Shown: positions 13,781 through 30,307 of the stretch, in pieces
How the letters are laid out: each line of letters begins with the position of its first letter
Position numbering within the stretch: the stretch's first letter is position 1
Assembly (NCBI GenBank): GCA_029559155.1
Contig: JAKQCM010000216.1
Span: 1 to 37,271, forward strand
DNA from: Chloroflexota bacterium
GTDB taxonomy: Bacteria; Chloroflexota; Anaerolineae; Promineifilales; Promineifilaceae
DNA length: 37,271 bases
Reading direction: 5' to 3'
Program-made: the position numbers and the translations under genes
Notes under the pieces: model-generated
Told to the model about the DNA's origin: nothing
Seen by the model: the letters and a program-made list of their open reading frames with translations, nothing else
Database searches by the model: none

Positions 13781-16700
13781 ATGAACCGAATGGCTGTGGA
13801 ATCGGATTCTGGGAAAAACGTCCGGGATAAATTGTTCACTGGCGAGTATTCGCAGCTGCTGCACAACTTGTCGCCTAAACGGCTGTTGTTGTTTACGCTG
13901 GTAGCCATCTATGTAACCGAGCTGCTGGTGATGCTGTTAATTGAGGTGCTGCTCAATGAGCCGCTGGCTCTGCCGTTCCATGTGATGGAAACCGTGCTGG
14001 ATGCGACGATTTTGGCCGTTCTGGTGTTTCCGATGATTTACTCCTTTTCTTTTCGGCCGCTGCGAAGTTCGCTTAAGGCTTTGCAGCAGACACAGGAATC
14101 GCTGACCGCGTCGCTTTCCTTGTTGGAGAAGACATTTTCTAGTCTGGGCGAAATTGTATTCGTCCTGAATGATCGGACGCAGAAGATTTTGTTAGCCAAT
14201 CAATCGGTGTCGGAGGTGTTGGGCTATTCGTCTGAGGAGATGGTGGGCAAGGGAATTGACGTGTGTTTTGCCGACCCGGAGACGTATCAAATCTGGGCGC
14301 AGCAATTGGAGCGTCGGCTGTCACAAAAGGGTCATGTTCGGGTGGAAACAGTTTTTCAGACCCGGGATGGGCAAGCCTGTGTTGTGGAAACGACTGTGTC
14401 GCGGATTCATTCCAACAACGGCGAGCCAACCTATCGGGTGTTGTTGATTCGTGATGTGACGCAGCAGCGGGTGACAGAGGAAAAGATTCGCCTGCAAACG
14501 GCCGCGTTAGAAGCGGCGGCCAATGGCATCGTGATTACGGATCGCAACGGCCGTGTCGAATGGACCAATCCGGCCTTTTGTGCCATGACCGGTTATTCAG
14601 GCGATGAAATAGTGGGTTCCAGTCTGAATCAATTGAAATCTGGCCAGCATAAGGACGGATTTTACCAGACTTTGTGGCAAACCATTCTGGCCGGGCAGGT
14701 GTGGTCGGGTGAAATTGTAAATCGGCATAAGAACGGCCGTTTGTACACTGAAGAACAAACCATCGCCCCAGTGCGAGACGGGAATGGAGCCATCACTCAC
14801 TTTATCGCCATCAAACAAGACATCTCCCAGCGCAAAGAGGTGGAGCAAAAGTTAAAAGACAGCGAAACACGCTACCGCAGTCTGGTGGAAACATCTCCTG
14901 ACGGCATTTTGCTCACCAGTCTGGACGGCAAAATTTTGTTTTGCAATGAACAAATGGCCCAAATGACCGGCGCAGAAAGCCCTCAGACGCTCATCGGCCA
15001 CAGAACCCATGAATTTCTGACGCCCGAAGGTCGTTTTCAGGCGCAAAACAACATTCAACAACTGCTTTCTAACCGGGCGACGCGCAGCTCCGAATACGAA
15101 ATCATCAATATCAACGGGGAGCTTTTGCCCGTGGAAATCAGTTCTTCGGTCATTGAAGATCAGAACGGTCGGGTGACTGGCCTGACCAGCATGGTGCGGA
15201 ACATCAGCGCCCGCAAAAAAGCGGAATTCCAGCTTTCCAAACAAAATCAAGAGCTGCAAACGTTGAGCCAACTGAGCCGTTCGCTGGTTTCCAGTCTGGA
15301 AATGGACGTGGTTCTGAGCCGGATCGTGGAACAAATTATGCCGCTGCTGGCCGCCGAGTGCCTGACCATTTTATTGCGCGAGGGCGAGGAATTGGTTTGT
15401 CAGGCGACCGGCGGGTTGGGGTTTGGTTATTTGAAGGGGCAGCGCATTCCGATTGACGATGAGCTGTTGGCACCGGTGTTGGCTGCGGAACGGCCGTATT
15501 TGTCCACGGCCGTTGACTGTCTTTTCTACCTCAAAAACTGCGCTTATCCTTGTTACGATCCCCAACGCGCTCTCATGCTCGTCCCGCTGCGAGTAGGCCA
15601 GGAAACCATCGGCCTCATGCAAGCCATCCACAGCCAGCAAAACGCCTTCGATGATGAAGACAGCCGCCTGATTCTGGCTGCCGCCAGTTGGGCGGCCGTG
15701 GCCATCAACCACGCCCGCCAACACACCCGCATTCAGCGCCAACTGCGCGAAACAGAAACCCTGGCGACGATCAATCAGGCCCTGAACGAAAGTTTGGAAA
15801 TGGACAAACTCCTGCAGCTTATCGCCGATTCAACTCAGGTGCTCATCCCGCAAATGGATCAGGTGGTCATCCATCTGGCCGACGAGCAGGAGCATATGTT
15901 GACCCCTGTTATCTGGAGCGGCGTCACCGAACCCAGCCTGATGACGCTTTTTGTTGATTTGCGCGAAAGTTTGTTGAGCCAGGCGTTATCCACGCAGTCC
16001 ATTATGGCTTACCCTGATCTGGAGGCTGTAAAAACCGAGGGGATTCAATACTCCTGGTCGACTGGCGCGCTGTTGGTCGCGCCCTTAATTGCCAATGGCG
16101 AGCGCGAATTGGGCACCATTAGCATTCGCAGCCTGAAGCCGTTTGCCTTTTCGTCTAATGACGAGGTTGCTTTGTCGCGGTTGGCGGCGTCGGCGGCAAT
16201 TGCCATCGAATCTTCGCGCCTGTATCAATCCGAACGTTCGCAGCGGCAAATTGCCGAGGCGTTGGTGGGGGCAGCCAAAGTCTTTAGCCAGAGCTTGCAG
16301 CTTAACGATGTGCTAAAAATGGTTTTGCAGCAGTGCCAACAGGTGGTATCTTGTGAGGAAGCGACGATTTTATTGGGTGCGGATGGTTCTGAATGGCGCC
16401 AATCGACTCTGGCAACGGCCGTTGCCCAATCTATCCATCTGTTTGCCACAGACGATGCCGCTCCAGCGCTTCTAACCGACACCCAGTATGAATGGATGGT
16501 TCAGACCAGCAAACCCGTTCTGGTAGAACTCAAAGATTTTTCCGCCCATCAGGAAGAAACCAGCCCAACTTTGCCAGAAACGATGGCGGTTGCATCCCTG
16601 AGTGTGGGGCAGCAGACCATCGGTTTCCTGATTGCCCATCATAGTCAGCTCAAACATTTCGACACAAGCATTTTGCGCCGCCTGGAGGCGCTGGCTTCTC

Positions 16701-17524
16701 AGGCCGCTTTGGCCATCCACAACGCCCAAATGCACCAAAACCTGCAAGCATTGTTGAACCAGGAACAAGCCATGCGCCAGCGCCTGATTCAAACCGAAAA
16801 ATTAACCGCCATGGGACGAATGATTGCCTCTGTAGCCCACGAGATGAACAATCCGCTGCAAACCATTAAGAATTGTTTGTTCATCAGCCAGCGGCGTGTG
16901 ACCGAAGAACATCCCATTTCCACTTATTTGGAGATGGCGTCTTCCGAGACCGGTCGCCTGTCTGATCTGGTGGTACAGCTGCGCGAAGTGTATCGCCCGC
17001 GCAGCAGCCAGGACATTGCGCCTTTTTCGGTGCAAAAGCTTATTGAGGAGACGCAGGCGATTTTGCAGCCCCATTTTCAGCAGAATCATGTGCGTTGGGT
17101 GGTAGACACGTCTTCGATTCCAGCCGATTTTACGACGATGGGAATCGCCAATCAGCTCAAACAGGTGTTATTGAACATTTCGCTTAACGCCGTGGATGCG
17201 ATGCAGCCACATGGCGGCGAACTCACCTTACGCATCTTGTATGATCTGGAAACAGATCGGGTTGGTTTACAATTGCAGGATACCGGGCCAGGACTGGATG
17301 CGAAAGTAATCCCCAATTTGTTTGAGCCGTTTTTTACGACCAAAGAGTCTGGGATTGGCCTCGGTTTGGCAATTTGTTACGATATTGTGCAAAATCATGG
17401 CGGGCAGATTACCGTGGAGAATGCTGAATTGCCACACCATGGGGCGGTTTTTACTATCTGGTTGCCGTGTAACGGCCGTAACGATCCGACAAATCAAACA
17501 TCACAAGGAGCCATTAGTGCCTGA
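13781..17524 (+). CDS. Membrane sensor histidine kinase with 3 PAS and 3 GAF domains
   Basis: 1247-aa two-component sensor. Domains, with approximate residues: two transmembrane segments (35-57, 70-92), PAS (113-232), PAS (240-355), PAS (364-485), GAF (495-645), GAF (656-815), GAF (821-985), a HisKA-type dimerisation helix pair with phospho-acceptor H1020 in VAHEMNNPLQ, and the HATPase domain with N box NISLNAVDAM, G1 DTGPGLD, F box FEPFFTTK and G2 GIGLGLAI. No extracytoplasmic domain lies between the helices, so sensing is probably intracellular or in-membrane. The first GAF carries a Cys cluster (C580, C587, C591) that could bind a cofactor or respond to redox. The stop overlaps the GTG start of the response regulator by 8 nt, so the two are translationally coupled. 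The signal is unknown. The start ATG 13781 has no clear ribosome-binding site; a later in-frame ATG (13790) is possible. Confidence 0.92.
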   Translation: MNRMAVESDSGKNVRDKLFTGEYSQLLHNLSPKRLLLFTLVAIYVTELLVMLLIEVLLNEPLALPFHVMETVLDATILAVLVFPMIYSFSFRPLRSSLKALQQTQESLTASLSLLEKTFSSLGEIVFVLNDRTQKILLANQSVSEVLGYSSEEMVGKGIDVCFADPETYQIWAQQLERRLSQKGHVRVETVFQTRDGQACVVETTVSRIHSNNGEPTYRVLLIRDVTQQRVTEEKIRLQTAALEAAANGIVITDRNGRVEWTNPAFCAMTGYSGDEIVGSSLNQLKSGQHKDGFYQTLWQTILAGQVWSGEIVNRHKNGRLYTEEQTIAPVRDGNGAITHFIAIKQDISQRKEVEQKLKDSETRYRSLVETSPDGILLTSLDGKILFCNEQMAQMTGAESPQTLIGHRTHEFLTPEGRFQAQNNIQQLLSNRATRSSEYEIININGELLPVEISSSVIEDQNGRVTGLTSMVRNISARKKAEFQLSKQNQELQTLSQLSRSLVSSLEMDVVLSRIVEQIMPLLAAECLTILLREGEELVCQATGGLGFGYLKGQRIPIDDELLAPVLAAERPYLSTAVDCLFYLKNCAYPCYDPQRALMLVPLRVGQETIGLMQAIHSQQNAFDDEDSRLILAAASWAAVAINHARQHTRIQRQLRETETLATINQALNESLEMDKLLQLIADSTQVLIPQMDQVVIHLADEQEHMLTPVIWSGVTEPSLMTLFVDLRESLLSQALSTQSIMAYPDLEAVKTEGIQYSWSTGALLVAPLIANGERELGTISIRSLKPFAFSSNDEVALSRLAASAAIAIESSRLYQSERSQRQIAEALVGAAKVFSQSLQLNDVLKMVLQQCQQVVSCEEATILLGADGSEWRQSTLATAVAQSIHLFATDDAAPALLTDTQYEWMVQTSKPVLVELKDFSAHQEETSPTLPETMAVASLSVGQQTIGFLIAHHSQLKHFDTSILRRLEALASQAALAIHNAQMHQNLQALLNQEQAMRQRLIQTEKLTAMGRMIASVAHEMNNPLQTIKNCLFISQRRVTEEHPISTYLEMASSETGRLSDLVVQLREVYRPRSSQDIAPFSVQKLIEETQAILQPHFQQNHVRWVVDTSSIPADFTTMGIANQLKQVLLNISLNAVDAMQPHGGELTLRILYDLETDRVGLQLQDTGPGLDAKVIPNLFEPFFTTKESGIGLGLAICYDIVQNHGGQITVENAELPHHGAVFTIWLPCNGRNDPTNQTSQGAISA

Positions 17525-18308
17525 ATCATCTACCATTTTGATAGTTGATGACGAACAAAACTTGCGCGAAACCCTCGCCGTCATTTTGCGTGATGAAGGG
17601 TACCAGGTTTATTCGGCCGCCGCTCCCAGCGAGGCCCTGACTTACTTACGCCAACGCCCCTTCGATATCATGTTTTTAGACATCCGCATGCCCGAAAAAA
17701 GCGGGCTAGACTTGCTGCCAGAAATTCGCCAGCTTCATCCCCGCATGCCCATCCTTATCCTGACCGCCTACGCATCGTTGGATTCGGCCATCGAAGCCAT
17801 GCGCAAAGGGGCCAACGATTACCTGTTTAAACCCATCAATCCTATCGATATTTTGCATCGGGTGAATATACTCCTCAGCAAACGCCCCAACTCTTCTCAG
17901 GATATTGTACAAGAAATGAAAAGCTTGTTGGCGCAGCTGGAAGGCAGCAATGATTCGTTGGCCGTTTCACCTGGAGAAAAAGAGGCTCAGGCAGCCAATC
18001 AACGCTTCTTACATTGCGGCAAAATTACCATAGACCTCATCGCCCGGCAGATATTTTCCGATGGGCAAATTGTGAATGTGACGCCCACCTCGTTTGATTA
18101 TTTGCTGGCGCTAATGCGGCACGCGCCGGAAACCATTGGTTATGTAGCCCTGGTACAGGAAGCGCAGGGATATGACTTGACGCAAATTGAAGCAAACGAT
18201 CTGGCTCGCGGCCGAATTCACGAACTGCGTAAGGCTCTGGAAGAGGATCCTCGCCGCCCGTCGATCATCATCACCATTCGGGGCATTGGATACCGGCTGG
18301 TTTGTTGA
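17517..18308 (+). CDS. OmpR-type response regulator
   Basis: 263-aa DNA-binding response regulator, the evident partner of the preceding kinase. The receiver spans about residues 5-125: acidic pocket D11-D12 (LIVDDEQN), phospho-acceptor D55 in FLDIRMPEKSG, the LTAYAS threonine and the conserved lysine in YLFKPINP. A ~65-residue linker leads to a C-terminal winged helix of the Trans_reg_C type (VTPTSFDYLLALM ... RIHELRKALEEDPRRPSIIITIRGIGYRL). Start GTG 17517 is chosen because AAGGAG (17505-17510) is 6 nt upstream and the receiver starts immediately; it overlaps the kinase stop. Its targets may include the secreted-protein block downstream, inferred from position only. Confidence 0.93.
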   Translation: MPESSTILIVDDEQNLRETLAVILRDEGYQVYSAAAPSEALTYLRQRPFDIMFLDIRMPEKSGLDLLPEIRQLHPRMPILILTAYASLDSAIEAMRKGANDYLFKPINPIDILHRVNILLSKRPNSSQDIVQEMKSLLAQLEGSNDSLAVSPGEKEAQAANQRFLHCGKITIDLIARQIFSDGQIVNVTPTSFDYLLALMRHAPETIGYVALVQEAQGYDLTQIEANDLARGRIHELRKALEEDPRRPSIIITIRGIGYRLVC

Positions 18309-18400
18309 GAAAATCGCTCCAAATGGGGGTTTGAGCCGCATAATACCTCAACAATTACCCACAACCCCAAACAATTTTTCCCTAAAAAAGAAATATGATT

Positions 18401-18434
18401 CAAGCAACGCACGCTAAGTTTAGCGTGCTGCTTG
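18401..18434 (+). terminator. Hairpin after the response regulator gene
   Basis: GCACGCTAA/TTAGCGTGC (18409-18417 and 18420-18428) extends through a 2-nt bulge to CAAGCA/TGCTTG (18401-18406 and 18429-18434), followed by CTTT. It is a plausible factor-independent terminator, or an attenuator before the next receiver gene. Confidence 0.6.
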
Positions 18435-18530
18435 CTTTGGATCGATTATGGGAAGCGAATTAAACAATTAGTACTCGCAAACCATGGGTCGGCAAGGCAA
18501 AATTGGAATCGGATCAGGGAGAAAATTGAA

Positions 18531-18914
18531 GTGTACACACCACATATCTTGATTGCCGATTCAGATGCCAATGTCCGGATAACGCTGACGCATTTGTTAG
18601 AGTATGGTGGTTATGAAGTTCGGGCCACACGGCCGGGCCGAGAAGTGGTGGATTGTCTGGCAAACGGCCGTTTCAAACTCCTCCTTCTGGAAATAGACAT
18701 CCCGGCGCAAAGTGGGCTTCTGCTGTTAGGAGCCATTCGCCGGTTTTCGCCTACCCTGCCGATTATTGTGCTGACCTCTTGTTCCGATATGCAAACGGCC
18801 GTTAGCGCCCGCCAATTCGGCGTCAGCAGTTACCTCGTTAAACCCATCAACCCAGCCAGCTTGCTTTGCCAAATCGACAAAGCGCTTGCAGGCAGCGCGC
18901 TCTTTCACCCCTGA
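18531..18914 (+). CDS. Stand-alone receiver-domain protein with Glu in place of the phospho-acceptor Asp
   Basis: A 127-aa single receiver domain with no output domain. It aligns without gaps to the receiver of the preceding response regulator. The conserved threonine (VLTSCSD) and lysine (YLVKPINP) are kept. The phospho-acceptor position is Glu54 (LLLEIDIPAQSG against FLDIRMPEKSG), and the second acidic-pocket residue is Ser11 (ADSDAN against VDDEQN). Phosphorylation in the normal way is therefore unlikely; Glu may mimic the active state. Start GTG 18531 has AGGGAG 9 nt upstream; an in-frame extension to 18432 would overlap the hairpin and looks non-homologous. It may modulate the adjacent kinase or regulator. 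Confidence 0.8.
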   Translation: MYTPHILIADSDANVRITLTHLLEYGGYEVRATRPGREVVDCLANGRFKLLLLEIDIPAQSGLLLLGAIRRFSPTLPIIVLTSCSDMQTAVSARQFGVSSYLVKPINPASLLCQIDKALAGSALFHP

Positions 18915-18940: not shown

Positions 18941-19000
18941 AGACCCCAAGGGTTTGATACCCCTATCATCCAAATTCTCACAAGTAAACCCTTGGGGTCT
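18941..19000 (+). terminator. Dyad of the AGACCC/AAGGGTTT family, likely terminator
   Basis: AGACCCCAAGGGTTT (18941-18955) is perfectly complementary to 18986-19000 across a 30-nt loop. It closes the signalling block and precedes the secreted-protein operon. It has the same consensus as the stem at 10926-10963, but a much longer loop and no T-run, so termination strength is uncertain. The following 19001-19177 is AT-rich and probably holds the next promoter. Confidence 0.6.
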
Positions 19001-19177
19001 GTATAGCTCCGTCCCCCAACCCCTCCCTCAATTGTGAAGATTGCCCCAACAATTCGGAATGAACCGGAACGTTCAGAACGCCTGTTTTCCTTAATAATTA
19101 CCCTTGTGCACTTTGTATCAAATTTTTTATTGAAGATAAGCGGGCTAATCAGTCACAAATTAACCAAGGAGGATACT

Positions 19178-19912
19178 ATGCCCCATAGAAAGAAGTTTCG
19201 TTTAGCAGTGGCCATACTCGGGTTTGGCGTGCTGCTCCTGGTAGCAGTTCTGGCTGCTCCACCCAATATGCTTGCCGAGACCCTCAGAGAAGGTCTCAGC
19301 CAGACCGTCGCCCTCACAAAAGCGCCAACTGATCAGCGACCGGTCGTCGATTCGGCGCCTGTCCGGCCGGTGAGCATCAAAGGGCAGTTTGAATTTTTGA
19401 AGGAAATCGGCTGGAGTATCTCCGAAGCGTACGTGGCTCATCCCGGGCGAACGGCCGTTATCACCGAAGGCACACTCCAGGATGGGTTTGTCATCAAAGC
19501 CATCGCCACCAACCCCGATTATCCAAACTTCACCAAAGGCATTCTGGAAATACAAATGTCCGCCTTTTCACCGGCCAAAGATATGCCCGGACAAAAAGCA
19601 GGCAAATGGTATATCCACGGCGAATGGAAAATTACCGACGCCAATGCCACGGCTGAAGTCACCCAATACCGCTACGGGCCTCACACATTCAAGGGCGTGA
19701 TCAACCTCGAACTCGATTACAACCCTCTGACCAAAGAAGGCCAGGCGCAATTCCTGAGCCAGCCCGTGCGCTTCGCCGCCCCTGGCGAAACCATCCAAAG
19801 CCAACCGCCACAAGCCGCGATAATCGGCAACACCCGTTTCAACGAGGCCTTCCAGCTTTCCGGCGATTACCTGTTAACCCCCGCCACAGCAGAAACTGAG
19901 GGAGGAAACTAA
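19178..19912 (+). CDS. Secreted or membrane-anchored protein of unknown function
   Basis: 244-aa protein that I do not recognise. A basic N-terminus (MPHRKKFR) and a hydrophobic stretch (LAVAILGFGVLLLVAVLAA) look like a signal peptide or anchor, so the rest (about residues 35-244) should lie outside the membrane. It is rich in beta-strand-like sequence with few cysteines. Start ATG 19178 is set by AAGGAGG 6 nt upstream, discarding an in-frame extension to 19034. Its TAA stop shares a base with the ATG of the multiheme cytochrome (TAATG), so the two are translationally coupled, and a role as partner or accessory of the cytochrome is the best guess. Confidence 0.75.
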   Translation: MPHRKKFRLAVAILGFGVLLLVAVLAAPPNMLAETLREGLSQTVALTKAPTDQRPVVDSAPVRPVSIKGQFEFLKEIGWSISEAYVAHPGRTAVITEGTLQDGFVIKAIATNPDYPNFTKGILEIQMSAFSPAKDMPGQKAGKWYIHGEWKITDANATAEVTQYRYGPHTFKGVINLELDYNPLTKEGQAQFLSQPVRFAAPGETIQSQPPQAAIIGNTRFNEAFQLSGDYLLTPATAETEGGN

Positions 19913-22900
19913 TGTCACACTTAAAAGATCGCATCACATCCAGTTTGCCCATCCGTAACCCCAGGAGCAGGCTCATCCTGCTCGTCTTGGTTGTGATGGT
20001 GGCCATGCTCGCCGTCATTAGCGTCAGCTATGCGGACGTGCCCGGCGGCCGCCCCACACCCGACAACGTGTCCGTGCCCAATCCCGGCACACAAGAACAA
20101 GAATTAACCAACATCACCTTCCCGGCTCCCTACAACACCTTTGAATTTGTGGTAACGTGTGGCGCTTGCCATGGCGGCACCATCGATCAACAAGCCGGGC
20201 ACTTTGCCAACTGGGCCGGTTCCGCCCACGCCAATGCTTTCCGCGACCCCATCTTCCGCGCCAATCAGCAGATTGTAAACCAAACAGTCCTCAACCTGAC
20301 CGGCGAAGATGGCGCAGGTAATGTGTGCGTACGCTGCCACAGCCCCAATGCCTGGTACTCCGGCCGTACAGACCCCAATTTGGCTGGAATGGCCGACACC
20401 AGCAACGCCATCAACAGCATCGTCCTCTCCACCGATGGCGAAGGCATCCTCTGCGAATTCTGCCACCGCACCATCGGCGGCGTTGAAATGCAGCGCGCCG
20501 ATCTGGACCCCAACGATCCCGTCTGGAACATGATGGCCGGCATCAGCGATTGGCCACACACCGGGGCTGCCTATCCTCAAGGTCCCGTTGCCGGTAACCC
20601 GTATGGCGACGCCACTTTCCAGATCAATGATGGCATGACCTACGGTGGGAAATACCCCGGCACGGCCGAAATCTATTTCAGCGACATACCTCTGGCCGGT
20701 ACCAACTACACCGGTCAGGCTTACGGTGTCTACCCACCTGGTTGGCAGTTGCCTGGCGGCATAGACGCCAGCGGGCAGCCCGCTTTTGCGCCGGACGGCT
20801 CTGTGCCTCTGCATTTTGAAGCGCCCATTGGTCCGCCGCAAAACCCGGATGGTTCCTACAATTACCAGGGTCAGGCGTTCTCGCCGGAACATACAACATT
20901 CGAGGGAGATTTCATCAGAACTTCTGAGTTCTGTGGCGGCTGCCATGATCTGACCATTCCGGTACTCAATCATGGGATGCCGGAACAACGTACCTACACA
21001 GAATGGCGTTACAGCTCCTTCGGTGATGGCGTCGGTGGCGACGATCAACGCTGCCAGGACTGCCACATGCCGACCCAGAAGCACGAATATGCTGACGACA
21101 TTCCGGTTTCCTTAAATGCGGATCCCGTGTTGTCCGGTTGGTTCCCCTACGCCAAAGATCGCAACCCGAACGGCGGTACCGCTTTCCACAAATTCCAGGG
21201 ATCTAACCGTGAATTACCCATGATGATGTCCATCCTCTATCCCGAAGTAGACCTGGAAGTAATCGGGGCGGTGACAGGTAATGATGTACGTATCTTCCCC
21301 GGTATGCTTTCTTCGCGCGATACCATGTGGACACGCGCCCAGCGCAATGCAGAAGTTGAAATGTTGGAAGCTGTGAAGTTGGACGTATTGAGCGCACCGG
21401 TTGAAGTATCGCCGGGTATCTATGAAGTTCAGGTTCAGGTTACCAACGAATCCGGGCATCGCATTCCTACCGGTTATCCCGACGGCCGTCGCCTGTTTGT
21501 CAGCCTCACCGTCGCAGACGCCAATGGCGCCCCGGTCTACGTTTCCGGATACTACGACGAAGCCGCAGCGCAACTCTATGACGACCCCACCAGTTTGCAG
21601 TTGGACGACCGCGCCCTGACCAATGTCATCGACGCGACCGTCGACAACCAGGTCATGATCTATGAAAAGCGGACTGGCTCGTTGGATGCCGGCACGGGCA
21701 ATTATGTGATGTCCGTCAACCTGATTAACACCACGGTCTTGTTCGACAACCGCATTCCCCCAGCCGGTTTCACCTACGCTGACTACAGCGCCGCCGGCAC
21801 CAAATTCGTGACCTACGACGATCCCACCACCAAAGCCCCGCGTGAAGACTTCGGTCGTTACCCGGACGGACAAAATTGGGACGTCATTACGTACCGGTTC
21901 GCCGCCCCGTCCGGCTCCGCTCTGACGGCTTCGGCGACTGCTTACTGGCAAACCCATACCCGCGAATTTATGGAGCATCTGCGCACCGAAAGCGCCGCTC
22001 TGGGCCTGAACGTTCGCCCGGAAGGTCCGCCAAACTTACTGGACCCGAATTACCCATTAACCCCCAACTACCTCAGCGACAACATCCCCGACTTCGACAT
22101 CATGACGTCGCTGGATGGTACGGAAGGGCTTCAGGATAACTGGGGTGGCGTAGCTTACGCGACCTGGTTATTGACCGGCAAGGGCAGTCCCTATCCTGTC
22201 GGCAGTGACAGCAGCGATCTCACGGCCGTTCCCGCAGCGCCAAGTTGGTTAACGGCAATCTCTCTTAACCCCTTCGCCGTTCAACTGGATTGGGAGGCTG
22301 TCCCCGCCGCCGATGGTTACGAAGTCTGGATCCGCTACGGCGCCAGCGACCTGACCGCTTCCTGGGACAGACTGGCTGTTGTCTATGACGGCACAACACT
22401 CGTCAACGACGCCATGAACATTGGCAAAACCTACGGCTTCAAGGTTGTGGCCTTCAACGGGCAAGGCGACAGCGCCGATTCTCCGCTGGCGATTATTACC
22501 ACGCCCATTGATCTGCCCTTGAATCCCATGAACACCAAAGTCGTTGGCGTCACGCCAAACTCCGTTGAATTGTCCTGGTTCGATCAGGCCGAATTGGAAA
22601 TTGGCTTTATTATCCAGCGGCAAGATGTGCCGGTGATGGGCGATTTCTACGAAGTGGCCCGCATCCCCAGCCAGACGCCGGGCGGCGCGACAGGCGGCAA
22701 TGCCTGGACAGACACAGGCGTTCTCCCAGGCATGACCTACAACTATCGCGTGGCGGCTTATAACGACATTGGCCAATCCACCTGGGACATTCCGGTAACG
22801 GCCAGCACCGGCGGTCTGCCCACCTGGGTCGGCACGCTGGGAGCCACAGCCATCAGCGGCAACCGCGTAGACCTGAGTTGGAGCGCGGCCAGCGGTCTGG

Positions 22901-23679
22901 TCACCGGGTATCGCATCGAGCGCAATACCACCGGCCCGAACGGCCCATGGACCACAACCTTTGTGGTAGCCAACCCGAATGCGACCAGCTACAGCGACAC
23001 AACGGCCGTGCCCTCCACCACCTACTGGTACCGCGCCTTTGCCTACAACACGGCCGGTTCCTCGGCTGCCTCAAACAGCGCCACGGTCACGACGCCAGCC
23101 ATTGCGCCCATTGCGCCAACCAATCTGGTAGCCACCGTTCAGGCCGGACCGCAAGTCTTGCTTACCTGGACAGATAATGCCAACAACGAGCAAGGCTTCT
23201 ATGTGGAACGAGCCAACGGCACAGGTCCAGACGTTGTCTGGGCGCGAATCGCCACTGTCAATGGCGCAAACATCACCACCTACACAGACACGACTGTTGG
23301 TACGCAAACCACGTACTCTTACCGGGTACAGGCGTTTGCCGGTGGTGGGTCGGCTGTATCGCCATATACGAATGTGGCAACGGCCGTTATCGGCACCGAA
23401 ATCCCGGGCGCGCCATCTCAACTCCTGGCCTCTCGCGTACAGAAAAACAGGGTCACTCTGGACTGGATGGATAACTCGACCAATGAAACCTACTTCGAGA
23501 TTTTCCGCAGCACAGACGGCGCTACGTTCGCCCCTATCGGCACAACCGGCGTCAATATCAGCACCTACAATGACCGTTCCGTGAATGCCAATACCAGATA
23601 TTGGTACTACGTAAGAGCTTGCAACACGGCTGGATGCAGCCAAAACTCTGAGACGATTGACGTTCGGACGCGTCGTTAA
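19912..23679 (+). CDS. Exported five-heme cytochrome c with five fibronectin type III domains
   Basis: 1255-aa secreted protein. A signal/anchor helix (about 20-42, LILLVLVVMVAMLAVISVSYA) is followed by five c-type heme motifs: CGACH (C83), CVRCH (C139), CEFCH (C181), CGGCH (C341) and CQDCH (C381). A beta-rich region (about 400-740) includes ESGHRIPTGYPDGRR, a segment typical of other multiheme cytochromes. Five FN3 repeats fill about 750-1255, each with the W/Y pattern (for example VQLDWEAVPAADGYEVWI, VELSWFDQAELEIGFIIQR, VDLSWSAASGLVTGYRIER). Covalent heme attachment outside the membrane implies electron transfer at or beyond the cell surface; FN3 repeats suggest binding to a surface, polymer or partner. 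Electron donor and acceptor are unknown. It is coupled to the upstream gene by TAATG overlap and ends at a hairpin. Confidence 0.9.
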   Translation: MSHLKDRITSSLPIRNPRSRLILLVLVVMVAMLAVISVSYADVPGGRPTPDNVSVPNPGTQEQELTNITFPAPYNTFEFVVTCGACHGGTIDQQAGHFANWAGSAHANAFRDPIFRANQQIVNQTVLNLTGEDGAGNVCVRCHSPNAWYSGRTDPNLAGMADTSNAINSIVLSTDGEGILCEFCHRTIGGVEMQRADLDPNDPVWNMMAGISDWPHTGAAYPQGPVAGNPYGDATFQINDGMTYGGKYPGTAEIYFSDIPLAGTNYTGQAYGVYPPGWQLPGGIDASGQPAFAPDGSVPLHFEAPIGPPQNPDGSYNYQGQAFSPEHTTFEGDFIRTSEFCGGCHDLTIPVLNHGMPEQRTYTEWRYSSFGDGVGGDDQRCQDCHMPTQKHEYADDIPVSLNADPVLSGWFPYAKDRNPNGGTAFHKFQGSNRELPMMMSILYPEVDLEVIGAVTGNDVRIFPGMLSSRDTMWTRAQRNAEVEMLEAVKLDVLSAPVEVSPGIYEVQVQVTNESGHRIPTGYPDGRRLFVSLTVADANGAPVYVSGYYDEAAAQLYDDPTSLQLDDRALTNVIDATVDNQVMIYEKRTGSLDAGTGNYVMSVNLINTTVLFDNRIPPAGFTYADYSAAGTKFVTYDDPTTKAPREDFGRYPDGQNWDVITYRFAAPSGSALTASATAYWQTHTREFMEHLRTESAALGLNVRPEGPPNLLDPNYPLTPNYLSDNIPDFDIMTSLDGTEGLQDNWGGVAYATWLLTGKGSPYPVGSDSSDLTAVPAAPSWLTAISLNPFAVQLDWEAVPAADGYEVWIRYGASDLTASWDRLAVVYDGTTLVNDAMNIGKTYGFKVVAFNGQGDSADSPLAIITTPIDLPLNPMNTKVVGVTPNSVELSWFDQAELEIGFIIQRQDVPVMGDFYEVARIPSQTPGGATGGNAWTDTGVLPGMTYNYRVAAYNDIGQSTWDIPVTASTGGLPTWVGTLGATAISGNRVDLSWSAASGLVTGYRIERNTTGPNGPWTTTFVVANPNATSYSDTTAVPSTTYWYRAFAYNTAGSSAASNSATVTTPAIAPIAPTNLVATVQAGPQVLLTWTDNANNEQGFYVERANGTGPDVVWARIATVNGANITTYTDTTVGTQTTYSYRVQAFAGGGSAVSPYTNVATAVIGTEIPGAPSQLLASRVQKNRVTLDWMDNSTNETYFEIFRSTDGATFAPIGTTGVNISTYNDRSVNANTRYWYYVRACNTAGCSQNSETIDVRTRR

Positions 23680-23695
23680 ACGATACTGTTAGATT

Positions 23696-23734
23696 CGCTG
23701 TGCCGGAGCCGCAATACTCCGGCACAGCGCTTTT
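23696..23734 (+). terminator. Hairpin after the multiheme cytochrome gene
   Basis: CGCTGTGCCGGAG (23696-23708) pairs with CTCCGGCACAGCG (23717-23729), a 13-bp perfect stem with an 8-nt loop, followed by CTTTT. The ribosome-binding site of the next gene starts within 10 nt, so it may reduce rather than stop read-through into that gene. Confidence 0.75.
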
Positions 23735-23748
23735 AATGAGGATAAATT

Positions 23749-26700
23749 ATGAAAAGCCATCGTACCTATAGGGCATTTGCTGCAATCCTGATCATCATTG
23801 CCCTCCTCTCGCTCGGTGGATTGGCCCTGGTGAGGGCTATCGATGCCAACAATGTAGACTATGTATCCCAAATTGGCGGCGACTCGCGCGCCGTGACTTT
23901 TTATGGTCAGTATGCTTATCTCGGCGTTGGCCCCAAAGTTGTCATTCTCAATCTCACCAATCCGGCCAATCCGGTTGTTGTTCAAGAATCCGATCCCTTG
24001 TCAGTTTTAGGCGGCCCGGATGCCATCGTCGAAGAGATCACGATCCCCGATGCATCCGGCAATATCTTTGTTGCCGCCGGAAACGCGGGGATGTTTATTT
24101 TGAATGTGACCAACCCTGGCAGCCCAACCAAACCCACTTTTGTTTCCAATTACAATACGGCCGATACCACCGATTATGCCTTGGCAGTAGACGTGTATGG
24201 CACGTATGCTGCGGTTGCGTTTGATACCGGCGGTCTCGTGGCGCTGGACGTTAGCGTCCCGGCTACCCCGGCTTTTGTCAATGCCGCACCCACCGGCGAC
24301 AGCGCCCGTGATGTAGGTTTGGTGAGTGGCGGTCTGGGTGAAATATACGCCTTTGTTGCTGCCGGCACGGCCGGCATCGAGTCTTACGAAATCGCGCCGC
24401 TGTTTGGCCTGGAAACCACCCTGCCATTGGCCGATTATGCTGAGGGTATCGCCGTCAATGCGACGCGTGTACACGCCTATGTCGCCGATACCGGCGGCGG
24501 GCTGCACATTATCGACATTTCGAACCCGGCGCTGATGGTTTCCCTCAGCAATCCGGCCACGGCCGGGCAGGCGCTGGATGTCGATTACTTCGGCAATTAT
24601 GTGTTCGTGGCTGACGATACAGCCGGTGTGCGCTTGTTTAATGCTGTGAATCCGGCCAACCCAGTGCCCTTTACACCGCCAAACGTAGATACAGAGGGTT
24701 ACGCGGTGGCCCTGGCCGCCGGAAATAATCGTATTTACGTGGCCGATAGTTGGGCAGGAATGAGCATCATCGATTTTAGTGTGGTGAGCAATCCCAATAT
24801 CATCGGCCGTTTTGCATCGCTGGGCGAAGTGAATGGCGTGGCGGTTTCCCAGACCAGCCCATATGCGTTTAGCGCGGATGGCTTAATGGGTCTGGCCAGC
24901 ACAAACGCGGCCAACCGAACGGCCCCTGTGAAGGCTGATGCTGCTGCGCTGGCAGATTATGCGCTCAACGTACAGCTTGCCGGTGATTATGCGTTTGCCG
25001 CCGATTCGTTTGGCGGATTGCAGGTGGTGGATGTGAGCGCGCCGGGTTCGCTAACGGCCGTTGCCTCTCTCCTCACCAATGACGTTGCCGTCGACGTCGC
25101 TCTCAGCGGCAATTATGCCTACCTCGCCGACAGCCTGGAAGGCCTCTTCATCGCCGACATCTCTGATCCTTTGAATCCGACCTTTGCTGGCAGCCTGGGC
25201 TCGCCAGACTTGCCCTACGCCGTCGGCGTGGACGTTGTCGGGAATTATGCCTACATCGCGGCTGATCTGGACGGCTTCTTTGTGGTCGATGTTAGCAACC
25301 CGGCCAGCCCGGCGGTGGCCGATTCTTTAGCGCTGGCGACCGGAGCCGCCTGGGATGTGGATGTGGTGGGCAGTTATGCTTATCTGGCGGCCGACGACGG
25401 CGGCTTGAAGGTCATCGACATCAGCGACCCCAACAACATCAGCCAGGTAGGTGAATTGACAGGCGTCGATTTGCCGCTGGCTTTAGACGTGGCCGTGGTG
25501 GGGAATCGCGCCGTGGTAGCTGGTGGTTCTGATGGCGTGATTGTCGTCGACATCAGTACCCCGACTGCGCCCACCAAGGCAGGTTACTACAACACCGCCG
25601 GTTTTGCCTCCCGCGTGACCATTGCCGGGGCCATTTATGTGGCCGATGTGGAAGGCGGTATGTACCTGTTGGATTACAACAACTTCAATTTTGGCGAAAC
25701 TGATCTGGCGATTGCCAAGACGGATGGGTTGAGCACGGCCGTTCCCGGCGCATCGCACACCTACACCATCACCGTCAGCAACCTCGGCCCAAGCGATGTG
25801 ACCGGCGCGACTGTTACGGATAGCTTTACCGGCGTTTTGGGCAGTGTGACCTGGACTTGTTCGGCGACGGCCGGATCTGGCTGCGACACGGCCAGCGGCA
25901 CAGGCAGCATCAACGCTACCGTCAACCTGCTTGTAGGCGGCGAAGCCACCTTCACGGCAACCGGCACAATCGCCAGCGACGATTCCGGCGTCTTGAGCAA
26001 CACTGCTTCCGTCGCGCCGCCGGCTGGCATGGTAGACACCAACTCAATCAACGACAGCGCCACAGACACCACCGATCTCGTCGCGCAAACGGACCTGAAA
26101 GTGGTTAAAAGCGGCATGCCGGACCCGGTTATTCCTGGCGCGGCCCTGACCTATGAAATCGTCGTGACCAATCAAGGCCCCAGCGATATGACGGCCGCAG
26201 CAACCCTGACCGACACGCTGCCGATGGATGTGGCCTTTGTATCCTCAACCCCAGGTTCACCGACGTGTACTCACAGCAGCGGCGACATCACTTGCGCAAT
26301 TGCACCTCTGGCGAGTGGAGCCAATGTCACCGTTACGCTTGAAGTACTGGTAGATGCCGCTGCCAATGCGGCGCTGGTCAACAGCGCGGGCGTGGCGGCT
26401 GTGGATACAGACCCGGACTTGACGAACAACACGGCCGTAATCACCACTGCCATCAAAACCGCCGACCTCGCCATCACCAAGAGCGATACGCCCGATCCGG
26501 TAACGGCTGGTGAGCAAGTGACTTATACCATCGGCGTAACCAACCAGGGGCCGGATGGCGCCACCAACGTGACGGTGGTTGATACGCTGCCTGCCGGTGT
26601 GTCGTTTGTCTCTGCCGCGCCAGGTTCGCCGACTTGTGCGGAAGCCAGCGGCGTTGTGACTTGCGACCTGGGCGCTCTGGCGAATGCCGGAACTGCACAG

Positions 26701-27603
26701 GTGACCATTGTCGCGCTGGTAAACAGCAGCACGACCGGGTTTTTGGCGAATACGGCCGTTGTCTCTGCCGATGAGTACGATGACAATACCGAGAACAACA
26801 CAGCCAACGCCACCACCCAGATCAGCCTGGAAGCGGATCTGGCCATTACCAAGAGCGATGGACAGGTCAACATCGTGGCCGGCGAGACCCTGACGTACAC
26901 CATCACTGTGACCAATGCCGGTCCTAGTGACGTGAGTGGCGCGTCAGTTGTGGACAACTTCCCGGCGACGCTGTTGGGTGTAGCCTGGCAATGTGCCTCC
27001 AGCGGCGGCGCAAGCTGCGCCAGCGCCAGCGGCACAGGCGATATCGACCTCAGCGTCGACATCCCGGTCGGCGGCGAGATCACCATTCTCGCTTCGGCGA
27101 CGGTTGCCAACACGGCTACCGGGCTGTTGATCAACACGGCCGAAGTGGCGCCGCCCGCAGGCACGATTGATCCGAATCTGGCAAACAACACCGCCACCGA
27201 TACCAACTCGCTGGGCGCGCTGGCCGATGTCAGCCTCAGCGCTTTGGCCGCGCCGGATCCCGTTCATCCAATGGAATGGGTCACCGTCACGCTCACGGTC
27301 GCCAACAGTGGACCGTCGGCGGCCGGCGGCGTGCAAATCACGAGTTTGCTGCCGGCGTCTGTCAGCTTTGTCTCGTCGGACATCTGCACGATGACCGGCA
27401 GCCAACTGACTTGCACCGTTGGCGTGTTGGAAAACGGGCAGCAAGCGACGGCGACAGTCGTTTTGCAGGTCAAGACGGTTGGTACGTTGCAGCAGCAGTT
27501 CAACGTGTTCGCCGTCAATGATAGCAACGCCAGCAACAACACGGCCGTTGCCACCATCAACGTTTCGCCATTCATGAGTTTCTTGCCTCTGGTCACCAGA
27601 TAA
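23749..27603 (+). CDS. Secreted LVIVD-repeat / DUF11-repeat surface protein
   Basis: 1284-aa exported protein. After a signal peptide (KSHRTYRAFAAILIIIALLSLGGLALVRA) the region to about residue 640 is a run of LVIVD repeats (for example YAYLADSLEGLFIADISDPLNP, GNYAYIAADLDGFFVVDVSNPASP), which form a beta-propeller. Five DUF11 domains follow, beginning near residues 652, 782, 906, 1030 and 1160, with motifs such as ADLAITKSDTPDPVTAGE and VTNQGP. The protein ends FLPLVTR, close to the terminal LPMM of the next protein, perhaps a shared export or anchoring tail. A structural or adhesive surface role is likely; no catalytic motif is visible. A GAGG ribosome-binding site precedes ATG 23749, and a strong terminator follows the gene. 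Confidence 0.9.
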   Translation: MKSHRTYRAFAAILIIIALLSLGGLALVRAIDANNVDYVSQIGGDSRAVTFYGQYAYLGVGPKVVILNLTNPANPVVVQESDPLSVLGGPDAIVEEITIPDASGNIFVAAGNAGMFILNVTNPGSPTKPTFVSNYNTADTTDYALAVDVYGTYAAVAFDTGGLVALDVSVPATPAFVNAAPTGDSARDVGLVSGGLGEIYAFVAAGTAGIESYEIAPLFGLETTLPLADYAEGIAVNATRVHAYVADTGGGLHIIDISNPALMVSLSNPATAGQALDVDYFGNYVFVADDTAGVRLFNAVNPANPVPFTPPNVDTEGYAVALAAGNNRIYVADSWAGMSIIDFSVVSNPNIIGRFASLGEVNGVAVSQTSPYAFSADGLMGLASTNAANRTAPVKADAAALADYALNVQLAGDYAFAADSFGGLQVVDVSAPGSLTAVASLLTNDVAVDVALSGNYAYLADSLEGLFIADISDPLNPTFAGSLGSPDLPYAVGVDVVGNYAYIAADLDGFFVVDVSNPASPAVADSLALATGAAWDVDVVGSYAYLAADDGGLKVIDISDPNNISQVGELTGVDLPLALDVAVVGNRAVVAGGSDGVIVVDISTPTAPTKAGYYNTAGFASRVTIAGAIYVADVEGGMYLLDYNNFNFGETDLAIAKTDGLSTAVPGASHTYTITVSNLGPSDVTGATVTDSFTGVLGSVTWTCSATAGSGCDTASGTGSINATVNLLVGGEATFTATGTIASDDSGVLSNTASVAPPAGMVDTNSINDSATDTTDLVAQTDLKVVKSGMPDPVIPGAALTYEIVVTNQGPSDMTAAATLTDTLPMDVAFVSSTPGSPTCTHSSGDITCAIAPLASGANVTVTLEVLVDAAANAALVNSAGVAAVDTDPDLTNNTAVITTAIKTADLAITKSDTPDPVTAGEQVTYTIGVTNQGPDGATNVTVVDTLPAGVSFVSAAPGSPTCAEASGVVTCDLGALANAGTAQVTIVALVNSSTTGFLANTAVVSADEYDDNTENNTANATTQISLEADLAITKSDGQVNIVAGETLTYTITVTNAGPSDVSGASVVDNFPATLLGVAWQCASSGGASCASASGTGDIDLSVDIPVGGEITILASATVANTATGLLINTAEVAPPAGTIDPNLANNTATDTNSLGALADVSLSALAAPDPVHPMEWVTVTLTVANSGPSAAGGVQITSLLPASVSFVSSDICTMTGSQLTCTVGVLENGQQATATVVLQVKTVGTLQQQFNVFAVNDSNASNNTAVATINVSPFMSFLPLVTR

Positions 27604-27725: not shown

Positions 27726-29063
27726 ATGCGACGAATAGCAGCTCTCGTTGTGGCCTTGATGACGGCGTTTGGCTTGATGGGTACGGCCGTTTTCTGGCTC
27801 CATCCCCCGCGCATCCATGCCGCGCCCGAGACCGTCATCAGCGTTACCACTACCGTGGATGAACTGGATGCCAACGGTTTGTGTTCTTTGCGCGAAGCAA
27901 TCCAGGCGGCTAATACGGATACGGCCGTCGACGCCTGCGCCGCCGGTTCCGGTGAAAACGACGTGATTTCCATTCCCGCCGGACATTACCTGCTCACCCT
28001 GGCCGATCCGGTTGGTGTGGTGGAGGAGAACGGCAATGCCACCGGCGACCTGGATATTTTGCAAAGCGTAGCCCTGATTGGGGCCGGCACGGCCCAGACG
28101 ATCATTGATGGCAACGGCATTGACCGCATCTTTCACCAGCCTGGCGCAGCCACCCGGGTTGTCGTCAGCGATGTTACCGTTCAGGGCGGCGATTTGGGTG
28201 TTGGAACCAGCGTCAATTACTCTGGCGGCGGCTTTTCGCTCATCTCCGGCTGCGCCCTGACGCTGACCAATGTGTTGGTGACGCAAAATCAGGCCAGCCC
28301 AGGCCAGCCCATCTTAAGCAGCGGCGGCGGCGGCGGGATTTATAACAACGGCGGCCAATTAACCCTGCAAAACTCAACGGTTTCTGGCAACATTGCCGGG
28401 TTTGGCGGCGGCGTCTATAACGGTGGTCGCCTGACGATCATCAACAGCAGCATCTTGAGCAATCAATCCACCTATTACGGCGCCGGCATCATCCACGCCG
28501 GCACGAGCGACGTCAACATCCAATCCAGCGCCATCAGCTATAACGTGGCTGGCAGCAACGGCGGCGGTCTTTATCTTACCGGCGGTACGACCAACCTGAC
28601 CAACGTTACCATCAGCCATAATCGCGCCAGCCAATACCTGGGCGGCGGCGTTTGGGCGTATTACGAAGGCATTTTGGCCGTCAACATTGATCATTCGACC
28701 ATCTATGCCAATTTTGCCGGAACTGGCGGCGGCATTTACAACACCCATCAGCAGGGCTTGTTGATGATGGGTGCGGCTCCGGCTGCGCCGCAAGCCGGTC
28801 TGATTACGCTGAAAAACAGCATCGTGGCCGCCAATACCGGCGGCAACTGTGGCCGCAGCCCACAAACATCGGCCTTTGTCTCGCTGGGGTATAACATCGA
28901 CAGCGCCAACGATTGCGAGTTTCAGGCCGCCACCGACCAAATCAACACAGATCCAACATTGGGCCGTTGCAAGACAATGGCGGTCCCCAAACGCATGGTT
29001 TACGAGCAGGCAGTCCGGCTATCGACGCGGCGGACTGCGCCGATACACTGGGCAACCCGGTGA
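27726..29063 (+). pseudogene. CSLREA / beta-helix surface protein, 5' part of a frameshifted gene
   Basis: Exported protein with a signal peptide (MRRIAALVVALMTAFGLMGTAVFW), a CSLREA domain (DANGLCSLREAIQAAN) and parallel beta-helix repeats rich in SGGGGGIYNNGG-type turns. The intact reading ends near residue 413 (TDPTLG). After that the frame yields a non-homologous tail to 29063, while the expected continuation (PLQDNGGP..GSPAIDAAD) is in the -1 frame. A deleted C in GGGCC(C)GTTG at about 28962-28966 explains this exactly. Either a recent mutation or an assembly error is possible; the intact gene would span 27726-30307 (about 860 aa). ATG 27726 is preferred to ATG 27720, because AGGAGG (27713-27718) is then 7 nt away. 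Confidence 0.85.
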
Positions 29064-30307
29064 TTGTGGATCAGCGTGGCGTGGCCCGGCCGCAAGGCGC
29101 AGCGTGCGACAGCGGCAGCTTTGAATTTGTGCCGGGCCAGAACAGTGATTTGCGCCTCGTAAAATCTGTCTCGGTGACGGCGGCCGGACCGGCCGAACCG
29201 CTGGTGTATACGCTGACGATTTTTAACGATGGTCCTGATCTGGCGGCCAATGTGACGGTGACGGATACACTGCCGGTTGGTTTAACGGGGGTAACGGCCG
29301 TTGCCCCCAATTGGTCCTGCCAGACGCCCGCCGGTCTGGTAGTCTGCGTATACAGTGCGGATTTGCCCGTGGGCGCAGCCCCGGACGTGCGGGTGGAGGC
29401 TACAACGCCGACCAGCAGCGGCATTTTAACCAATACGGCCGTTGTCGCCGCGCCAAACTTCGATGTAGACTTGTCGCAAAACCAGGATGACGCCGTCACA
29501 CGCGTGACCAGTCCGGCGGCCGATTTGCAGATCATGAAGACGGCCGTTCCCACGGCCGTTCTGCAGGGCGAGCCGCTAACTTACACGCTGGTTGTCACCA
29601 ACGCTGGCCCAGATGCGGCCTCTTCCATCACCCTGACCGATACGCTGCCGGATGGGGTCTCTTATCTGGGCTATACGGCCGTTGGCTGGAACTGCCAGGA
29701 TGCGGTGGCCATAACCTGCACACGCGCAGCTTTGGCGGCTGGCGAATCGTCGACGGTCACGCTGCATACCTTGGCTCCTGGTTTCACCGGAACGATCACC
29801 AACACGGCCGTAATCGCGTCGGCCGTACCCGATCCGCAGGTGGGTAACAACACGGCGTCGATGGCGACGGCCGTGCTGCCGGCCAGCGGCGCGCAAGCCG
29901 ATCTGGCTGTGACGCAGGCCATTACCCCGACCACCATCCACAGCGGGGAGGTGGTCACCGTGACCCTGACGGTGACCAACGCCGGGCCGGACCCGGCTGA
30001 AAGCTTGTCGCTGCAAAACAACCTGCCGGTGAATGCCGCGCTGCTGGCCATTCACAGCGGCGCCTGGCAGTGCGTGGACCAGTCGCCCACTGTTTTGTGC
30101 ACGCTGCCGGTGTTGGAAACGGCCGTGTCCTCTACAGTTCAGTTGGTGTTACAGGTGGGCTTGTCGGGGCGCGAATTGGTGAACGAAACGGCCGTTAGCG
30201 CAGCCACGGCAGATCTCAACAACAGCAACAATCGGAGCGTGTTGACTGTGCCGATTATCCTGCCGCCGCGCGCGTATTTGCCGATGATGGTGAAAAGTGG
30301 GGAATAA
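28964..30307 (+). pseudogene. CSLREA protein, 3' part of the frameshifted gene (choice-of-anchor and DUF11 repeats)
   Basis: This frame continues the protein cut at about 28964. It begins with the end of the beta-helix/choice-of-anchor region (PLQDNGGPQTHG, AGSPAIDAADCADTLG, DQRGVARPQGAACDSGSFE), then carries three DUF11 domains starting near SDLRLVKSVSVTAAG, ADLQIMKTAVPTAV and ADLAVTQAITPTT. It ends AYLPMMVKSGE. It has no credible start codon or ribosome-binding site of its own, so it is not a separate gene unless translated by frameshifting; no canonical slippery heptamer is present. Its DUF11 domains resemble those of the preceding gene, suggesting family expansion. The gene is closed by a hairpin at 30345-30383. 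Confidence 0.85.

Follow-up and report, generated by a model that had tools for sequence, protein, structure and literature searches.

A pentaheme cytochrome (PHC) family was proposed in 2025 that unites ExtKL, Gsu2801 and proteins of cable bacteria, and that has structural homology to the archaeal nanowire AvECN as well as to cytochrome c552 (PMC11976967). ExtKL sits in an extHIJKLMNOPQS cluster together with a porin-like gene (PMC5877670), and in ECN proteins four hemes are present, with three distal His residues supplied by another subunit (PMC12203936). Here we describe an FN3-tailed branch of this already-proposed family and the partner protein that accompanies it, both of which are newly found; the open-licence papers found describe neither this fusion in Chloroflexota nor the partner family. 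The locus lies in a Chloroflexota genome, within the stretch of 37,271 nucleotides that was analysed as a whole (hereafter the window).

An exported pentaheme cytochrome and its upstream partner

The two genes of the unit, their heme motifs and the flanking signals are listed in Table 1. Partner and cytochrome are coupled by one shared base between stop and start codon (TAATG), and the Shine-Dalgarno sequence of the partner gene ends six bases 5' of its ATG. Since a terminator-like hairpin lies 3' of the cytochrome and an inverted repeat 5' of the partner, the pair probably makes up the whole of its transcription unit. The inverted repeat is a possible terminator or operator; it recurs in the same-genus locus L035, whose genome is near-identical, so that this recurrence is weak evidence.

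Table 1 Features of the two-gene unit and its flanks, in window coordinates
Feature	Position	Strand	Remarks
Inverted repeat, AGACCCCAAGGGTTT ... AAACCCTTGGGGTCT	18941-19000	not assigned	perfect, 15 bp, 30-nt spacer; between response-regulator gene and pair
Shine-Dalgarno sequence of partner gene	19166-19172	+	AAGGAGG
Partner gene	19178-19912	+	244-aa exported ORF, no Cys; undescribed family
Shine-Dalgarno sequence of cytochrome gene	19900-19906	+	GGGAGGA, within partner gene
FN3-tailed pentaheme cytochrome gene	19912-23679	+	1255 aa, exported
Heme motif 1, CGACH	20158-20172	+	residues 83-87
Heme motif 2, CVRCH	20326-20340	+	residues 139-143
Heme motif 3, CEFCH	20452-20466	+	residues 181-185
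Heme motif 4, CGGCH	20932-20946	+	residues 341-345
Heme motif 5, CQDCH	21052-21066	+	residues 381-385
GHRIPTGYPDGRR motif of beta domain	21454-21492	+	residues 515-527; holds His516 and Tyr522
Five FN3 domains	22258-23676	+	about residues 783-1255; Pfam fn3
Intrinsic-terminator-like hairpin	23696-23729	+	13 bp; directly 3' of cytochrome, parts the pair from the gene at 23749
LVIVD-repeat protein gene	23749-27603		five DUF11 repeats; downstream of cytochrome hairpin

By shuffling the cytochrome sequence 20,000 times, we obtained a mean of 0.0019 CXXCH motifs and a maximum of 1, as against the five observed; the five motifs are not due to chance. Ten of the 12 Cys residues lie within these motifs, accounting for all ten Cys of the core, and CXXCK is absent from the protein. 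Pfam fn3 matched the cytochrome above its cut-off in five separate stretches (85.9 bits, E 2.3e-24). Both proteins begin with a strong hydrophobic segment, and AXA-like cleavage sites, judged by eye, recur among the cytochrome orthologues; both proteins are predicted to be exported. The sequence-only reading of this DNA had described a secreted protein with five CXXCH motifs at residues 83-385 and with five FN3 domains in its C-terminal ~500 residues, its start overlapping by one base the stop of an unrecognised secreted ORF. Each of these points agrees with our results.

That partner protein had no match in Pfam, NCBIfam or PDB sequences. Its orthologues are 196-244 aa long, with 24-31% identity between classes, and the family keeps W, G and P positions, including the motif AF.P..D[ML].GQ..G.WY..G.W. 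The window partner contains no Cys and none is conserved among the orthologues; the family would therefore carry neither a c-type heme nor a conventional iron-sulfur cluster, and for the same reason the partner is probably a structural tether. Partners of two genomes (G763 and G764) have a lipobox-like LAAC. An AlphaFold model, of low confidence (pLDDT 45, from a shallow alignment of 3 sequences), was all-beta after an N-terminal helix, and Foldseek searches with it returned nothing significant (best E 1.0); weak matches to barrels such as streptavidin were not trusted. The most economical reading of the partner is probably that of a tether or docking subunit.

A pentaheme family core and a strictly paired FN3 branch

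The heme core (residues 41-783) was aligned with 40 homologues from Chloroflexota, Pseudomonadota, Myxococcota, Ignavibacteriota and others. No variation occurred in any of the five CXXCH motifs (40 of 40), nor at His426 and His516 (core numbering His386 and His476), and His327 was kept in 36; these three residues are natural candidates for distal heme ligands, and His516, in the GHxxPxG loop, likely is one. The cores of the FN3 group have eight further invariant His residues besides the five motifs. Searched against the PDB, the 40-homologue profile matched the penta-heme cytochrome c552 of Thermochromatium tepidum (5ze8) along the heme part as well as the beta domain (E 5e-25), and the multiheme selenoprotein MccSep (9wt8) at E 3e-9, to which the core also has a weak direct match. 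All five motifs align with 5ze8, and a second aligned stretch, the beta/Ig-like domain with the His of the GHxxPxG loop, is found in both 5ze8 and MccSep. The Sec residue U325 of MccSep aligns with Tyr522 of this loop, a site held in the other aligned rows by Tyr, Phe, Thr, Ser or Gly, with Tyr the usual residue. Against the ExtKL model NF040886, the core scored 37.8 bits (E 8e-10), far below the cut-off of 250, and AvECN (8e5g) was a late and insignificant match of the family profile (E 0.086). The AlphaFold model of the core was poor (pLDDT 40, from a shallow alignment of 18 sequences), and the top Foldseek match obtained with it was again 5ze8 (E 1.2e-4, target TM-score 0.30). On these sequence comparisons, we place the core in the pentaheme cytochrome (c552/ExtKL, PHC) family, in which certain proteins may act as catalysts and not simply as conductors.

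The FN3-tailed form was found in seven genomes of two Chloroflexota classes, and most relatives are about 620 aa long, with neither FN3 nor a partner gene. The window's class contributes the genome of the window itself (G000), G001 (L035, 98%) and G358 (L036, 64%), and the other class G471, G777, G763 and G764, at 58-60% identity. Pfam FN3 was above the cut-off in five orthologues (L036 and the four of the other class), and the sixth, from G001, is near-identical in sequence to the window protein. In a maximum-likelihood tree the seven FN3 cytochromes formed one clade with support of 100/100, indicating a single gain of the architecture. In support of the phylum assignment, MAGs named "Chloroflexi" and "Anaerolineae" are the closest relatives that bear a name.

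In all seven genomes the partner gene lies directly upstream of the FN3 cytochrome gene, with gaps of -1 to 33 nt. By a first profile, the partner was found in three of 396 genomes of the window's class, all three of which have the FN3 cytochrome; with both profiles, partner and FN3 cytochrome occurred in the identical four of 158 genomes of the other class and the identical two of 400 genomes phylum-wide. In the genome samples searched, the partner did not occur alone. When five partner proteins were compared by tblastn with all retrieved loci, matches appeared only at loci of the FN3 form, and a plasmid search for the partner gave none. Pairing of partner and FN3 cytochrome is strict within the samples searched, and the two genes stay side by side across two classes, at core identities as low as about 60%, where the other neighbours changed. 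Of the interpretation offered by the sequence-only reading, the genuine five-heme c-type cytochrome fused to FN3 and the gene pair as a real unit stand, and neither of its two proposed refutations came about: the CXXCH motifs are invariant across the 40 homologues, and no sampled genome has the partner without the FN3 form. The physical complex that it suggested, the binding to a mineral, polymer or partner cell and the electron transfer beyond the envelope are predictions. What it overlooked is the membership of the core in a known pentaheme family (c552/ExtKL).

Beyond the pair, neighbourhoods differ among genomes, with the exception of a ccm operon in G471 and G777, which belong to one genus. 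Here ccmB- and ccmC-like genes flank the pair; ccmA lies upstream, and on the downstream side follow ccmE, ccmF and a ResA-like thiol-disulfide gene (CcmB was named by eye, the others by family matches). On other contigs, the genome of the window carries ccmABC-like and ccmEFGH-like sets (families of the smaller genes assigned by eye), and its CXXCH-coding patterns are about three times as frequent as a reversed-pattern control. Heme attachment is well supported because of this ccm linkage, the gene sets and the excess of CXXCH-coding patterns. No porin, conduit or other EET gene was found next to the pair.

Two sets of neighbours were considered and rejected. The LVIVD/DUF11 gene, a candidate third member of the unit, is separated from the cytochrome by the hairpin, is found beside it only within the same genus, and was not seen downstream in G358, G471, G763 and G777. 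A very large PAS/GAF histidine kinase with two response regulators lies upstream of the pair in the window (13781-18911) and in G358 (L036, 1893-6986), and since their types differ (HisKA_3 and LuxR-type versus HisKA and OmpR-type), the two sets are not orthologous. As a separate observation, a YLPLVxR or FLPLVTR-like C-terminal tail occurs in 13 of 63 exported-looking ORFs versus 6 of 217 others, counts that are not phylogenetically independent, and several of the latter six also look exported by eye. It was seen in the window ORFs at 23749-27600 and 28895-30304 and in the cytochromes of L059, L061, L066, L071, L009, L011, L012, L015 and L016, and is absent from the FN3 cytochromes; it may act as a signal for sorting or anchoring at the C-terminus. 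The window's genome has only one pentaheme gene of this kind. This genome also encodes an eight-motif multiheme cytochrome (L095, G000:C47, 3911-5263) between cytochrome b-like and Rieske-like genes; close by are NrfD-like and YeeE-like genes together with one for a molybdopterin oxidoreductase (by eye).

Possible roles of the pair

We tentatively propose, at somewhat short of an even chance, that the two-gene unit is an exported redox complex of the cell surface, for electron transfer or oxidoreductase activity, held by FN3 in wall or matrix. Partner and pentaheme cytochrome would be translated together and exported, presumably by Sec, and Ccm (System I) would attach the five c-type hemes outside the cell membrane; up to this heme loading, the predicted steps are well supported at the level of sequence. 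The heme core and the beta (Ig-like) domain would then form the redox unit, the FN3 tail would hold it in the matrix of a floc, in a sheath or in the cell wall, and the partner, which has no cofactor residues, would tether or dock the cytochrome at the outer face of the membrane. The core may thereby pass electrons between the respiratory chain in the membrane and an acceptor or donor beyond it. Weighing against the proposal are the varied neighbourhoods outside the pair, the lack of a porin, conduit or other EET gene beside it, the single pentaheme gene of this kind in the genome and the low confidence of both AlphaFold models. A reductase role would fit equally well, since a five-coordinate heme has led to the suggestion that PHC relatives are catalytic (PMC11976967). 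We regard as rather doubtful the narrower idea of a complex dedicated to extracellular electron transfer in Chloroflexota, in which a new tether family docks the matrix-bound pentaheme cytochrome to the membrane and, in one genus, the pair has its own heme-loading operon; if true, electrons would leave cells of this phylum by a route that differs from the porin-cytochrome conduits of the outer membrane.

The main rival is a catalytic role, because PHC proteins are classed as potentially catalytic (PMC11976967) and ExtKL has been linked to selenite reduction by its authors (PMC5877670). The cytochrome could be an extracellular enzyme in which one of the five hemes, with an open site beside the GHxxPxGY loop, reduces or oxidises a small molecule, for example a sulfur, nitrogen or selenium oxyanion, with FN3 and partner merely holding it at the surface. 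The exact fall of the MccSep Sec residue on Tyr522 and the strong conservation of the loop and the following GRR in most Chloroflexota members are consistent with such an enzyme. However, the site has neither Sec nor Cys, Tyr is common there even in plain members, substrate binding is a prediction, and in none of the seven genomes is the pair linked to genes for metabolising such a substrate; on balance we consider an enzyme possible but rather unlikely.

FN3 tails suit placement in a matrix, and the nearest relative is a MAG from activated sludge; both could fit a wall-bound or extracellular store or shuttle of electrons in a filament sheath or floc, with no dedicated external acceptor. Strict pairing with the partner and linkage to ccm genes point to a specific unit instead of bulk capacity, and we take such a store to be improbable. 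Chance adjacency of two proteins with separate roles, their pairing inherited by descent, could draw on the commonness of overlapping genes and on the fact that all seven cases fall in one clade, but retention of the adjacency while other neighbours changed, and a partner that never occurs alone, leave it little probability. A role as a polymerised nanowire like AvECN, which is proposed to share ancestry with c552-type pentaheme proteins, is unlikely, and we give it only a very slight chance: the family link has been reported (PMC11976967) and AvECN does appear among the late profile matches, but that similarity is insignificant, the core differs from ECN in its five motifs and the further invariant His residues of the FN3 group, and every subunit of any filament would carry an FN3 tail of 470 residues as decoration.

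As a surface redox complex or otherwise, the pair combines a known redox core with adhesive domains, one new protein accompanying it in every case, and extends the c552/ExtKL pentaheme family, the function of which is still unsettled. Electron exchange with the outside is poorly understood in Chloroflexota, which are among the main filamentous bacteria of activated sludge, and the pair offers a small, conserved and testable two-gene module of single origin.

Comparison with known systems

The closest structure, T. tepidum c552 (5ze8), shares with the window protein five CXXCH motifs in identical order and, after them, a beta domain bearing a (G)HxxPTG loop. It differs in its length of about 435 aa, in having no FN3 tail and no known partner, and the window protein has a long insert between hemes 3 and 4. 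ExtKL and MccSep (NF040886; 9wt8) likewise have five hemes and the GHxxPxG loop and lack FN3, whereas the window protein has Tyr instead of Sec and does not reach the NF040886 cut-off. The cable-bacteria PHC proteins (sPHC, lPHC and lPHCtX) also combine a pentaheme part with an Ig-like domain and extra terminal fusions; their fusion partner is a truncated hemoglobin, unlike the FN3 of the window protein, and the accessible part of that report mentions no homologue of our partner protein linked to them (PMC11976967).

NrfA nitrite reductase has an active-site heme bound by CXXCK, a motif the window cytochrome lacks, and MtrC/OmcA have ten hemes and two beta domains, as against five hemes here and a PF22113 score of 24.7, below the cut-off of 30. 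OetF, from the partner bacteria of ANME, is also a cytochrome with fibronectin domains, for which binding to matrix or partner has been proposed, but it belongs to the Oet conduit of sulfate-reducing bacteria (PMC10553843). Nearest to home are the plain five-heme cytochromes of the same Chloroflexota family (about 620 aa), which share the five hemes, the GHKLPTGY loop and about 31% core identity; unlike the window protein, they have no FN3 tail and no partner gene, and often end in a short YLPLV-type C-terminal tail.
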